From the IMG/VR virus record IMGVR_UViG_3300047557_000848, positions 1 through 41,275 of that record: a stretch of DNA of 41,275 bases; one strand, 5' to 3'. The position numbers and the translations under genes were made by a program. The notes under the pieces are model-generated. The model did no database searches and was not told the origin of the DNA. It saw only the letters and a program-made list of their open reading frames with translations. Each line of letters opens with the position of its first letter. Position 1 is the first letter of the stretch. Source of the DNA: a virus. Shown here in pieces: positions 6,343 through 40,284 of this stretch.

Positions 6343-6756
6343 TCACTTGGTGTAGTTTTTAAGATACTCGATTGCGGAGCAAAGAATGTCAATGTCATCT
6401 TTTAATAGTCCCAACCCTGTATTGCATTTGTGACATAGGACTCCTCTTTTCTGGCCTGTTTTATGATCGTGGTCTGCGTGCCAGTTTGTGGCACCAGGGT
6501 CTTCGGTCTCACAAATAGCACATCTATAGTTTTGTTCTCTTAATTTATTTTCAAAATCTTCTGGACTAAAACCCGAAAGTTTTTTCCTATTCCATTCCCT
6601 GGTTCTTTTATTATATTGTTTTCTTTTTTCTGGAGTTGGTTTCCAGAGCTTGGAACAGTCTCTACATTGATTATGCAAACCAAATTTACCCGATTTACTT
6701 TTATTAAACTTTGAAAATTCTTTTTCAATTTTACAAGTAGAGCAGCGTTTTATCAT
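6343..6756 (-). CDS. Endonuclease VII-type HNH nuclease (inserted)
   Basis: This 137-aa protein has an N-terminal zinc pair (CSTC near 5-8 and CRDC near 32-35) and the endonuclease VII core: CAICE near 98, HADHDHKTG near 110-118, RGVLCHKCN following. Family members resolve DNA junctions or act as homing endonucleases. It sits alone among structural genes and is clearly richer in A/T than they are, so a free-standing homing endonuclease is more likely than a replication enzyme. A second relative lies at 39740-40162. Confidence 0.85.
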   Translation of the reverse strand: MIKRCSTCKIEKEFSKFNKSKSGKFGLHNQCRDCSKLWKPTPEKRKQYNKRTREWNRKKLSGFSPEDFENKLREQNYRCAICETEDPGATNWHADHDHKTGQKRGVLCHKCNTGLGLLKDDIDILCSAIEYLKNYTK

Positions 6757-37304: not shown

Positions 37305-38258
37305 TTACTTTCCTCCACTTGGTTTGATGTTTAGTCTTACTGATTCGTTACCAACAATCTTGGGAACAAACCCTAGAAGTTTCTCAACCTCTTTTGCGTC
37401 TACAGTCTCACGACCTTTGACTGTTGTCCAACTGATTTCGATACCACTTGCAGTAGTTCCGGTAGCACCTTCAAGGCTTGCCTTGTAAGAGTCTCGCTCT
37501 TTCTCTAGCTCCTTTATCTTGCTGTCTAACTGTAAGTAGTGCAGTGCGTGCTTGTCAACTTCTTCGTCCTCAATCACGACTTCACTAAGGACGATACGTT
37601 CTTTCTTGAGACCACCGCAACCCATCTGCTCACTAGCATCGTAGTACTGGCAGTAGTTCTTGCAGAAAGAAGCTTCTTTTTCTGGCTCTGGCAATGTAGT
37701 AGATGCCTTGACATTGGCTAGCCAAGTCATTGCCTCGATTGCAATAGACTCATCATAAGGTTCTGTGTGGACTCGTACACTATCCTCATCACCATCACGA
37801 GCGATTGCTACTAGGTTGACATCTTTGACCTTTGCCTTACCAGACTTCTCTAATAGGTATCCATATACCTGCACTTGCCAGCGCTGTTGCTTTGATGGAA
37901 AGTATGAAAGGTTCTTTAACTTGACTGTCTTCCAGTCAACAACTGAACCAGTCTCTGGAATGAACAAGTCAATGTGTGCCTTGATGCCGTCATACTCAAC
38001 TTCTGTTTCAACCCAGTACTTCTCACCATTAGGATCAATAGCCTCGATTGACTTCTCAATCTCTGCGTGAATAGCAGTACCCATAATGGCTGCAAGTTTC
38101 TTTAATTCAAAGTTAGTCTCTGGCTGTTCATTTAACCGGTACCAGACCTTGCGTTTACATCCACCAATTTCTGATGGACCAACTTGTGTTTGCTTAGAGC
38201 GGGACTTGTTAGCGTCCTTCTCGTGCAACACAGTCAGCAATAATTCTTTTGGATTCAT
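37305..38258 (-). CDS. RecB/Cas4-like nuclease with Fe-S cluster
   Basis: This 317-aa protein has the PD-(D/E)XK core of the RecB family: His64 in GTAIHAEIE, Asp97 in AHIDLF, Asp108-x-Lys110 in VVDWKTV, and the QVQVYGYLL helix. Cys34 plus Cys199, Cys203 and Cys214 fit the four-Cys iron-sulfur cluster of AddB/Cas4. It should degrade or process DNA ends in recombination. Confidence 0.82.
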   Translation of the reverse strand: MNPKELLLTVLHEKDANKSRSKQTQVGPSEIGGCKRKVWYRLNEQPETNFELKKLAAIMGTAIHAEIEKSIEAIDPNGEKYWVETEVEYDGIKAHIDLFIPETGSVVDWKTVKLKNLSYFPSKQQRWQVQVYGYLLEKSGKAKVKDVNLVAIARDGDEDSVRVHTEPYDESIAIEAMTWLANVKASTTLPEPEKEASFCKNYCQYYDASEQMGCGGLKKERIVLSEVVIEDEEVDKHALHYLQLDSKIKELEKERDSYKASLEGATGTTASGIEISWTTVKGRETVDAKEVEKLLGFVPKIVGNESVRLNIKPSGGK

Positions 38259-39097
38259 TCCTGCCCTCTTTCATCTTCTTCAAAGAAACACCCGCATCCA
38301 CCGATATCAGTTTCATCAATCAGCGTTGGAGCACTTTCAACTCTACGCCTTAATTCTACCAAAGGCAATGGTCTTTTAACGCCATCTTTCATATCTCTTA
38401 AAATAGACACATCCTTGCCTATATGTCTAATTACTTCTTGTTCTTTCTCTTCCCACATAGCAAAGCGTTCAGGCATAATTTCTAGCAACTTCTTAAACTG
38501 TGCTTGGCCAGCACGTACGCAACCACCACCGCAGTTGTTATGGCTGAATCCAAGATCGTAAAGACGAGGCGTTGTAAGTCCTTCGTCTTTAGCCCACTGT
38601 ATTAACTCAGGTTTATCAAAATACATTCTTGTTTCTCGGTGGTAATAAGGTTCAGCTAATGGGGCAATAGCTTGGTAAGGCTTATAGTTCTTAACGATTG
38701 CTGGCAAACGATGTGTTTCCGTCCAGTCAATACCCACGTACACGACAGTCTCTTCTGGGTCACAGTTCTCTTCAAGCCATTGACGAGCTGGCTTTTGTTT
38801 AAGTTCAAAGGAACAATGTGCTAGTCGAGAATTACCTAAGAATTTTCTTTCCTTGAATACATCCCAGATATCTTTACCTTGATTAAGGTACACGTAGGTA
38901 CCGCCAACATTCTTTACAGAATCATCTAGGAACCTGTATGTGTCTTCATCTTCTCCGATATGCGGGGATTCAGCATTACCCTTTACATCAGTAAAGACAA
39001 GGTAAAGGTCATCGGTGCCGTGCTTAGCAGCAACCATCTTTGCTGCAGCCCAGGAACCAATACCGCCTGAGTACATTACAACGTGTTTTACTGCCAC
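38255..39097 (-). CDS. PP-loop ATPase, PAPS-reductase-like
   Basis: This 280-aa protein has the PP-loop SGGIGS at 10-15, the signature of enzymes that adenylate a substrate, and in this family often move sulfur. Cys95, Cys189 and Cys193 (NNCGGGC) and a C-terminal GGCGC add possible metal or sulfur sites. Relatives include PAPS reductase and DndC, which modifies DNA with sulfur; no other dnd genes are visible. Its substrate is unknown. It starts with GTG. Confidence 0.72.
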   Translation of the reverse strand: MAVKHVVMYSGGIGSWAAAKMVAAKHGTDDLYLVFTDVKGNAESPHIGEDEDTYRFLDDSVKNVGGTYVYLNQGKDIWDVFKERKFLGNSRLAHCSFELKQKPARQWLEENCDPEETVVYVGIDWTETHRLPAIVKNYKPYQAIAPLAEPYYHRETRMYFDKPELIQWAKDEGLTTPRLYDLGFSHNNCGGGCVRAGQAQFKKLLEIMPERFAMWEEKEQEVIRHIGKDVSILRDMKDGVKRPLPLVELRRRVESAPTLIDETDIGGCGCFFEEDERGQE

Positions 39098-39195
39098 TTA
39101 CGATCATCTCTCCACTGTAGCCACGCATCAAATCCGTATGCGCTAACAAATCCAATAAGAAATGCTAGACCGCAGTATGCAATCAACTCTTTCAT
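39088..39195 (-). CDS. Single-span membrane micro-protein
   Basis: This 35-aa protein is a membrane helix (LIAYCGLAFLIGFVSAYGF) with a basic tail. It is overlapped at both ends, by the Ntn hydrolase (ATGA) and the PP-loop gene, which argues that it is translated. Confidence 0.5.
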   Translation of the reverse strand: MKELIAYCGLAFLIGFVSAYGFDAWLQWRDDRKWQ

Positions 39196-39752
39196 TTGTA
39201 AACCCTTTCCTGTACTACTACTTGTATCGGTGGTGAAGTGTTGATATCTAAAATGGATGCAATCTGCACTGCCTTCTCAGCTACCACACTTGCCGTGAGG
39301 ACCTTATTGTAATTCTTAGGTGGCAAGGAATACAAGTACCCAATAGCATAATTTCCACCAGAGCCTGCCGCGAATAGCCCACGCTCGGATGTGTTAAACG
39401 ATAGGTCGCCACCGATAGAGAAGAGATTGCCGTTGAACCCGATAAGGAACGAGAAGTTCATCTCCTTGTTATCTATCTCGTAGTTACCTTCCTTGAAGGC
39501 TGCAGAGATACTAGGCAGAATCTTGCTACCCATAAACCTCGTTGGGTCCTCACCGCGATAGAGCGGTGGCTTCCACGCATAGGCAAGGATATCTCCTGGA
39601 CGTGAGTCACCAGTAAGACCGAGTAGGTATTTACCAGTGCTGATTATCTTCGGAGTTTCTACTGAGATGATGCGTTGATCTCCGTCAGTTATCTGCGAAT
39701 CCGCAGCCATTAGAATGAAGTCAGGTCCTTGGACCCCTACTAAGGTTGTGAT
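39192..39752 (-). CDS. Proteasome/HslV-like Ntn hydrolase, likely ATC start
   Basis: Reading from ATC at 39752 gives 186 residues beginning ITTLVGVQGPDFILMAADSQ. If the first residue is removed, Thr1 and Asp17 fall exactly where proteasome beta and HslV need them, with Lys34 close to the usual 33, and GLTG and GSG blocks follow later. The first canonical start, ATG at 39710, would cut off the catalytic Thr. An AGAGG site lies 6 bases before the ATC. Upstream in frame there is no ATG, GTG or TTG before a TGA. Alternatives are a frameshift from the endonuclease gene or loss of function. Confidence 0.68.
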   Translation of the reverse strand: MTTLVGVQGPDFILMAADSQITDGDQRIISVETPKIISTGKYLLGLTGDSRPGDILAYAWKPPLYRGEDPTRFMGSKILPSISAAFKEGNYEIDNKEMNFSFLIGFNGNLFSIGGDLSFNTSERGLFAAGSGGNYAIGYLYSLPPKNYNKVLTASVVAEKAVQIASILDINTSPPIQVVVQERVYK

Positions 39753-40162
39753 GGTTCGCCTCTTTCCTCTAAATACTTCACAGCTTCAAGGAGTAAGATT
39801 TTATTATCCTTTGCATAACCCAATAGTAGGTTACAATCGTTACAAAGTAAACCGCGTACTTTCCCTGTATTGTGGTCGTGGTCTATGTATAGCGTAGGGT
39901 GATTTCTACCAGGCTTATCTGTTCCACAGATAGCACACAACCCACCTTGGTCTGTATTAAACTTATCATAATCTTCTTTTGTTATACCGTAACGTCTAAA
40001 CCGAGAGTATGTTCTGCCACGTTCAGGCTTGGAATACCTAGCAGTGCGTGCTAAATCAGCACGGCACTGTAAACAATACACAGATTTACCATCTTTGCGT
40101 GATTTATCAGAACCGAAAGCATCTACTGGGCGTTCTGTTTTGCAGTTGTGGCAATATTTCAT
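39740..40162 (-). CDS. Endonuclease VII-type HNH nuclease
   Basis: This 140-aa protein has N-terminal CxxC pairs (4/7 and 30/33) and the endonuclease VII core CAICG, DHDHNTGKVRGLLCNDCN, and a C-terminal helix. T4 endonuclease VII resolves junctions before packaging. It is the first gene of the leftward replication block and overlaps the Ntn hydrolase start region, so insertion as a homing gene is also possible. Confidence 0.82.
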   Translation of the reverse strand: MKYCHNCKTERPVDAFGSDKSRKDGKSVYCLQCRADLARTARYSKPERGRTYSRFRRYGITKEDYDKFNTDQGGLCAICGTDKPGRNHPTLYIDHDHNTGKVRGLLCNDCNLLLGYAKDNKILLLEAVKYLEERGEPSQP

Positions 40163-40284
40163 ATAACAAGTATAACAAAATATCGGCGTGTCGTACCAGA
40201 GACACGCTTACTAGGCGCTACAATATGAGCGTTAGCGAATAACAGTAAGCAGCCCTCACGGGCTGTAGGGAGTGAGGCCAGACA
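40163..40284. promoter_or_regulatory. Divergent control region with three inverted repeats
   Basis: The gap between leftward endonuclease VII and rightward genes holds GCGTGTC/GACACGC (40186-40207), CGCTA-N12-TAGCG (40216-40237) and the hairpin CAGCCC-TCAC-GGGCTG (40250-40265). The middle one matches the half-sites at 25613-25635. Promoters for both directions should lie here, but I could not pick certain -10/-35 boxes. Confidence 0.5.

Follow-up and report, generated by a model that had tools for sequence, protein, structure and literature searches.

A phage proteasome-like hydrolase displaced from its start slot by a mobile endonuclease gene and left with an inferred ATC start

Results

The hydrolase locus and its neighbors

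The window, by which we mean the whole stretch of DNA that was analyzed, is 41,275 nucleotides long (IMG/VR virus record IMGVR_UViG_3300047557_000848, positions 1 to 41,275). Close to one end of it lies a minus-strand gene for a proteasome/HslV-like N-terminal nucleophile (Ntn) hydrolase, preceded by a gene for endonuclease VII (PF02945, E=1.7e-23) whose frame overlaps that of the hydrolase by 13 nt (Table 1). The dyad farther upstream occurs as a single copy in the window; in most relatives it precedes the leaderless start, and it looks like an operator or regulator site.

Table 1. Positions of features at the hydrolase locus in the window
Feature	Position	Strand	Remarks
Proteasome/HslV-like N-terminal nucleophile hydrolase	39192..39752	minus	Inferred start ATC 39752-39750; Thr1 39749-39747; stop 39194-39192
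Hydrolase codons 1-4 (ATC ACA ACC TTA)	39741..39752	minus	Changed in excess when filled alleles are set against the nearest empty ones; taken to belong to the cassette
Shine-Dalgarno (SD)-like site AGAGG	39759..39763	minus	6 nt 5' of ATC; anti-SD duplex predicted at -10.8 kcal/mol for the upstream region
Endonuclease VII (PF02945) gene, inserted	39740..40162	minus	Its ATG fills the leaderless slot; its TAG stop lies 13 nt into the hydrolase frame
-10-like TATACT	40169..40174	minus	6 nt 5' of the endonuclease ATG; start predicted to be leaderless
Promoter-proximal dyad GTGTC...GACACGCCG	40184..40205	minus	Conserved; precedes the hydrolase in empty-site relatives

Adjoining the hydrolase is a gene (38255-39097, minus strand) that matches phosphoadenosine phosphosulfate reductase (PHROG 424, 1.3e-54) and, weakly, the PADLOC model for SspD (1.1e-9), and beyond it is a gene (37305-38258, minus strand) for a Cas4-like PD-(D/E)XK exonuclease whose match to TIGR00372 (E=6.7e-14) falls under the cut-off of that model. 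On the opposite strand, near the hydrolase promoter region, is an HNH endonuclease gene (PF01844; 40526-40882, plus strand), and a similar ORF occurs in other phages of the set. The presence in the window of a WhiB gene and of a gene resembling gp49 of mycobacteriophages L5 and D29 suggests an actinobacterial host, although this is an inference, and a search of the collection turned up no close cultured phage.

A proteasome-like hydrolase with an intact active site

The hydrolase matches the Pfam Proteasome family (PF00227, E=1.8e-6, above the gathering score) and PHROG 1040, “peptidase HslV family” (E=2.8e-23), and its weak sequence matches to HslV and BPH are consistent with both assignments. 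An alignment of 52 sequences shows no variation at T1, T2, K34 or G47 and at least 90% conservation of D17; Thr1 and Asp17 of the window protein stand in proteasome register, and Thr1, Asp17, Lys34 and Gly47 are conserved in it. Its AlphaFold model is confident (pLDDT 91.8, pTM 0.87). Foldseek gave BPH structures as the best solved matches (PDB 5ovs, 5ovt and 5ovu; E=8.5e-12, TM 0.74), followed by HslV (E=4e-11), at identities of about 20-24%, and models of phage HslV-like proteins match it at TM 0.88.

We could not place the protein in a named subgroup. Its score against the HslV equivalog TIGR03692 (30.9 bits) is far under the cut-off of 157.75, and it does not fit the description of PPH, the proteasome homologue of phages and their hosts, which is about 140 residues long and lacks helix H2; our protein has 185 residues from Thr1, and the model shows helices at 49-57 and 69-87. 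The protein is, then, a proteasome-like threonine hydrolase of the BPH/HslV fold with an intact active site and of unresolved subgroup; proteolytic activity and a free Thr1 are inferred, and the family name itself implies neither ring assembly nor peptidase activity (PMC8665760).

The hydrolase frame has no canonical start before its catalytic threonine

The first codons of the hydrolase, ATC ACA ACC TTA GTA, occupy positions 39752-39738 (ATC ACA ACC, 39752-39744), and the reading, which encodes TTLVGVQGPDFILMAADSQ..., stays open down to 39192, 186 codons counted from ATC. Upstream and in frame lie TGA AGC TGT GAA GTA TTT AGA GGA AAG AGG CGA ACC, and none of the eleven codons that separate this TGA from ATC is ATG, GTG, TTG or CTG. 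A canonical start in this frame first appears farther downstream, as the ATG of residue 14 (Met14).

Could the ATC simply be a sequencing error? We consider that it is not, because an independent contig (L001) has the same ATC in front of a protein that is 98% identical, with 12 synonymous differences, and because further relatives have ATC, ATT or ATA (hereafter ATH) starts. That the ribosome initiates at this codon is very likely, but this was strongly inferred rather than measured, from alleles without a canonical start, from a clade that starts at ATT without an upstream gene, and from purifying selection. The alleles without a canonical start are L044, L048, L052 and L032, in which the first 69 codons contain no ATG, GTG or TTG and an upstream stop is present, so that the active-site half of the protein could not be made unless ATC were used, and an internal Met cannot rescue it. 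Four ATH alleles do have a possible upstream start (L005, GTG at -5; L030, ATG at -5; L066, TTG at -4; L076, GTG at -5). Against the ATC model stands the absence of transcript 5' ends, ribosome profiling or N-terminal peptides for these uncultured phages.

These results bear out much of the original prediction. It had stated that no ATG, GTG or TTG precedes Thr1, that AGAGG lies six bases before the ATC and that Thr1 and Asp17 are in register, and all three statements held. Its proposal that ATC is the sole start that retains Thr1 held as an inference, and no relative was found to begin at the internal Met without Thr1.

ATH starts are confined to leadered alleles of the hydrolase

A first protein search, which took no account of the start codon, yielded 64 viral loci, and the 60 whose start could be seen comprised 49 ATG, 7 ATC, 1 ATA, 2 GTG and 1 TTG (ATH, 8 of 60). 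Pattern scans for ATH, GTG/TTG and ATG starts brought the set to 147 distinct full-length homologues, 20 of them with ATH, a share that is inflated because ATH alleles were deliberately sought. No relative was confirmed in bacterial genomes among the genome contigs searched.

Most relatives look leaderless, by which we mean that a TAnnnT box lies mostly 6-8 nt before the ATG or GTG start and that an SD is absent. Within the main clade of 135 members, the 106 leaderless-looking alleles comprise 101 ATG and 5 GTG and not a single ATH, whereas the 29 leadered alleles comprise 12 ATC, 4 ATA, 4 ATT, 3 TTG, 1 GTG and 5 ATG. The median predicted anti-SD energy is -10.8 kcal/mol for ATH alleles versus -5.4 kcal/mol for leaderless ones (p=1e-10). 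Mapped on the tree, the leadered state requires about 18 changes and ATH about 13, and in independent pairs leader and ATH agreed in 6-8 of 9 and were opposite in none (median p 0.016). It is possible that the junction spread by recombination, in which case there were fewer independent origins than tree changes.

An inserted gene is not a prerequisite for an ATH start. In the ATT clade (L075, L077, L088 and L092) the hydrolase is preceded by a short leader that bears an SD, with no gene upstream of it. Both ATT and ATC are known here without an inserted gene, and an SD is present every time. Nor is the link between leader and near-cognate start absolute, because leadered ATG occurs in the L072 clade, in L120/L180 and in the outgroup L146; a rule that an SD excludes ATG is thereby ruled out. 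In collection-wide scans these three lineages were the only ones with SD-led ATG, which was absent from the two large clades where most ATH arises. An ATG/ATC difference within an already SD-led gene, with no inserted gene, can be seen between L072 and L266/L267, all of which have TTAAGGAGGG leaders; L072 reads GCGAATC ATC and L266/L267 read GGTA ATG.

The ATH genes are under purifying selection. Their frames are intact and their dN/dS (0.02-0.25, with a value near 0.1) is like that of ATG genes, and in the ATT clade this constraint spans a dS of 0.6-1.0. The pattern is also peculiar to the hydrolase: among 693 conserved ORFs surveyed in 15 related phages, no second gene turned up with a clear ATH where the start is conserved, which rules out phage-wide use of ATH starts.

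A mobile cassette has taken the start slot of the hydrolase

We compared alleles with an inserted gene (filled) with their nearest alleles lacking one (empty), namely the pairs L005/L007, L030/L045, L032/L031, L047/L045, L068/L194, L070/L171, L089/L144 and L091/L115. The left homology runs through the promoter and stops exactly at the ATG of the empty allele, which is now the ATG of the inserted gene. In the window the insert replaced 16 nt, the -10 box included, and has a TATACT 6 nt before its ATG; a -10 box lies 6-8 nt before the ATG in 17 of 18 inserted genes checked. The original prediction that insertion of the endonuclease removed the original start therefore held, in that the ATG of the insert occupies the place of the leaderless ATG of the hydrolase. 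Two points have to be corrected: phage proteasome-like hydrolases were already known (PHROG 1040; PMC8665760), and near-cognate starts are spread more broadly among the relatives, including some that have no endonuclease.

Four kinds of insert were found at the start slot: endonuclease VII, a protein of about 50 residues (MEELIE...), a different HNH protein and a 19-codon ORF. The protein of about 50 residues (MEELIE...REQALRIL; L069:1295-1447 and L032:2858-3010) occupies the same slot as the endonucleases, is always accompanied by ATC, and is of unknown function. In filled alleles codon 1 of the hydrolase is ATC, ATA, TTG or GTG, and the recoding extends into the codons that follow. Synonymous differences between filled and empty alleles number 22 of 33 in codons 2-4 versus 71 of 595 in codons 5-60 (p=3e-12), while in empty-empty controls the same codons give 9 of 33 and 95 of 588 (p=0.15). 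The simplest reading, and a likely one, is that the cassette includes the SD, the start codon and the first four hydrolase codons, although selection after insertion may also explain the excess of synonymous change in codons 2-4.

The endonuclease VII gene has a nuclease domain and is present at this one site in some alleles and absent in others, and so qualifies as a free-standing homing endonuclease; cleavage and copying are inferred. Where endonuclease VII copies lie at other sites in these phages, the gene after them has retained an ATG, GTG or TTG start. One such copy is in the window itself (6343-6756, minus strand; PF02945, E=2.4e-20), and the gene that follows it seems to start with GTG behind GGAAAAATAA. 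The window gave no Rfam match, which rules out a group I intron or another structured RNA at the insertion; a tRNA-associated insertion was ruled out as well, there being no tRNA found.

Discussion

Insertion at the start slot and inferred initiation at ATC

The model that we favor, and consider likely, combines insertion at the start slot with SD-led initiation of the hydrolase at ATC. The ancestral hydrolase would have been translated from a leaderless mRNA with ATG, or sometimes GTG, as its first codon. A mobile cassette, which in the window is a free-standing endonuclease VII gene, would have entered at this start codon, so that the ATG of the cassette gene came to lie in the leaderless slot and was driven by the hydrolase promoter, while the 3' end of the cassette gave the hydrolase an SD site, a near-cognate start (ATC in the window) and synonymous codons 2-4. 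The hydrolase would then be initiated at ATC from this SD, probably in part through coupling to translation of the endonuclease. Even at ATC the initiator tRNA should bring in fMet, whose removal by an aminopeptidase should expose Thr1. Of this scheme the open frame, the SD, the takeover of the slot and the recoding of codons 1-4 are seen in the sequences of the filled and empty alleles, whereas leaderless transcription, initiation at ATC, removal of Met, proteolysis and any reduction in yield are inferred.

Both states fit known categories of start. The empty-site relatives meet the criteria for leaderless genes (a -10 box whose end lies 6-8 nt 5' of ATG/GTG, without an SD), although leaderless transcription is inferred, and window-type alleles meet those for an SD-led near-cognate start (no canonical start, an SD, a conserved state and a constrained gene). 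Mycobacteria accept only ATG or GTG as leaderless starts, but behind an SD they can use ATG, GTG, TTG, ATT and, weakly, ATC (PMC4633059), and by analogy the start codons of the relatives match this rule. It counts against the model that ATC showed only weak activity when starts were selected in mycobacteria, with 0.2% of reads (PMC4633059).

Why has ATG not been restored?

A major question arising from this model is why the displaced gene has not regained ATG. Three explanations, throttling, tolerance and homing-site immunity, are not separated by the evidence, and the question remains open.

The first possibility, which is compatible with the main model but which we lean against somewhat, is throttling: the hydrolase must stay scarce, and a near-cognate start is selected as a translational brake. 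On this view ATG behind a good SD leader would overproduce the enzyme, and ATC, ATA or ATT is therefore kept, as has been proposed for ccpN and pcnB. In its favor, an SD-like site accompanies every ATH; ATT has been retained across an old clade; ATA, a single transition from ATG, persists in two distant clades; ATG is missing after unrelated inserted genes and after a gene-less 5' UTR alike; endonuclease VII copies at other sites precede genes with ordinary starts; and AUU and AUA yield roughly 10-30% of AUG in S. aureus (PMC13009471). Against it, TTG and ATT are robust with an SD in mycobacteria (PMC4633059), so that not all such codons need be brakes, SD-led ATG does exist in the L072, L120 and L146 lineages, and there are no expression data.

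The second explanation, capture and tolerance, is likewise compatible with the main model, although we lean slightly against it. It holds that the cassette took the ATG and the promoter and that whatever initiation-competent triplet was left sufficed, there being no selection against ATG but merely weak selection for it. Support comes from the coincidence of the old ATG position with the start of the cassette gene, from the heterogeneity of the start codons (ATC, ATA, TTG and GTG) and from the linkage of codon 1 to codons 2-4 as parts of the cassette. However, ATA and ATC are one step from ATG, yet the collection-wide scans found no SD-led ATG in two large clades, and ATT and ATC are present also without an inserted gene. 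That ATA and ATT lie one step from ATG and have persisted nonetheless argues mildly against pure chance capture.

Homing-site immunity appears unlikely. It supposes that the endonucleases recognise the conserved start region and that codons 1-4 were recoded in resistant alleles, Thr-Thr-Leu changing silently and the start codon being able to become near-cognate at most. The changes between filled and empty alleles are indeed concentrated in codons 1-4, and there are endonuclease-free ATH alleles (the ATT clade, L072 and the small-protein alleles), as would be expected of resistant alleles. Against this, insertion by itself might already split the site, one cassette has no recognised nuclease, there are no cleavage data, and unrelated inserts that share the recoding would need similar targets. 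A bolder version, which we also doubt, has several unrelated cassettes homing to the start codon and codons 2-4, with near-cognate starts as the price of resistance to recleavage; if it were true, conflict with mobile endonucleases would drive the evolution of the start codon of a phage protease, even in alleles since rid of the endonuclease. As no more than an idea, it is also possible that control depends on IF3, which perhaps discriminates against both leaderless and near-cognate starts.

Readings in which ATC is not a start

Could ATC not be a start at all, the hydrolase being made instead by frameshift fusion with the endonuclease or from Met14? The overlap of the two frames and the in-frame position of Met14 in the window speak for these readings, but we regard them as very unlikely. 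For the fusion, no slippery heptamer was seen at the junction, and the ATT alleles have no upstream gene, so that fusion is excluded in that clade; we consider it ruled out. A start at Met14 would remove the invariant Thr1-Thr2 and is ruled out by the alleles L044, L048, L052 and L032 without a canonical in-frame start in 69 codons. SD sites are, moreover, suitably placed across different lineages. A further idea, that ATC results from avoidance of a TGA stop in the upstream frame, is weakened because TTG alleles retain TGA and because the ATT clade has no upstream gene. Finally, although all of the data are from metagenomic contigs, a sequencing or assembly error or a dying gene is all but excluded by the ATC of an independent contig with its 12 synonymous differences, by ATH in 20 distinct relatives and by intact frames with a dN/dS of about 0.1.

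Significance and relation to known systems

The locus offers a natural experiment on translation initiation, with before-and-after pairs of near-identical alleles that are leaderless with ATG or GTG or SD-led with ATC, ATA, ATT or TTG, and these alleles obey codon rules measured in mycobacteria, yet do so in uncultured phages. It shows too that a mobile gene can seize a leaderless start slot precisely while the displaced gene remains usable, and that this has recurred with unrelated inserts. There is also a practical consequence: gene callers limited to ATG, GTG and TTG would start the enzyme at Met14, losing the catalytic threonine, or miss it altogether.

Each element was already known singly: phage proteasome homologues (PMC8665760), leaderless translation (PMC4633059), near-cognate starts in bacteria (PMC13009471) and promoter-sharing homing endonucleases (PMC2988022). 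What looks likely to be new is the recurrent takeover of a leaderless slot that leaves the neighbor with an ATC or ATA start. We found no account of a recurrent takeover leaving a near-cognate start in the literature searched, nor any report there of an ATC, ATT or ATA start in a tailed-phage gene, which is not proof of absence.

The hydrolase shares Thr1, Asp17, the equivalent of Lys33 (K34), Gly47 and the fold with group I of the proteasome-like family, BPH and HslV (PF00227; PHROG 1040; PMC8665760), but differs in falling far below the HslV equivalog cut-off, in its low identity and in its displaced start codon. Like PPH and AAH (PMC8665760) it is phage-borne and group I-like, but it is longer than PPH and has two helices where PPH lacks H2. 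The empty-site relatives resemble mycobacterial leaderless genes (PMC4633059) in the spacing of the -10 box, the lack of an SD and the use of no codon other than ATG or GTG, although here the transcript start is predicted and the host uncultured. The ATH alleles share an SD-led, conserved near-cognate start with infC and pcnB (AUU) and with S. aureus ccpN and citZ (AUA) and cvfC1 (AUU) (PMC13009471); those, however, are cellular genes whose starts are kept within lineages, whereas in the phage hydrolase the state arises repeatedly, is tied to mobile insertion and most commonly involves ATC. Lastly, the free-standing homing endonucleases of T4-like phages (PMC2988022) also insert beside a gene, use the promoter of their neighbor and overlap neighboring genes, but the insert at the hydrolase takes the leaderless slot itself and hands its neighbor a near-cognate start.
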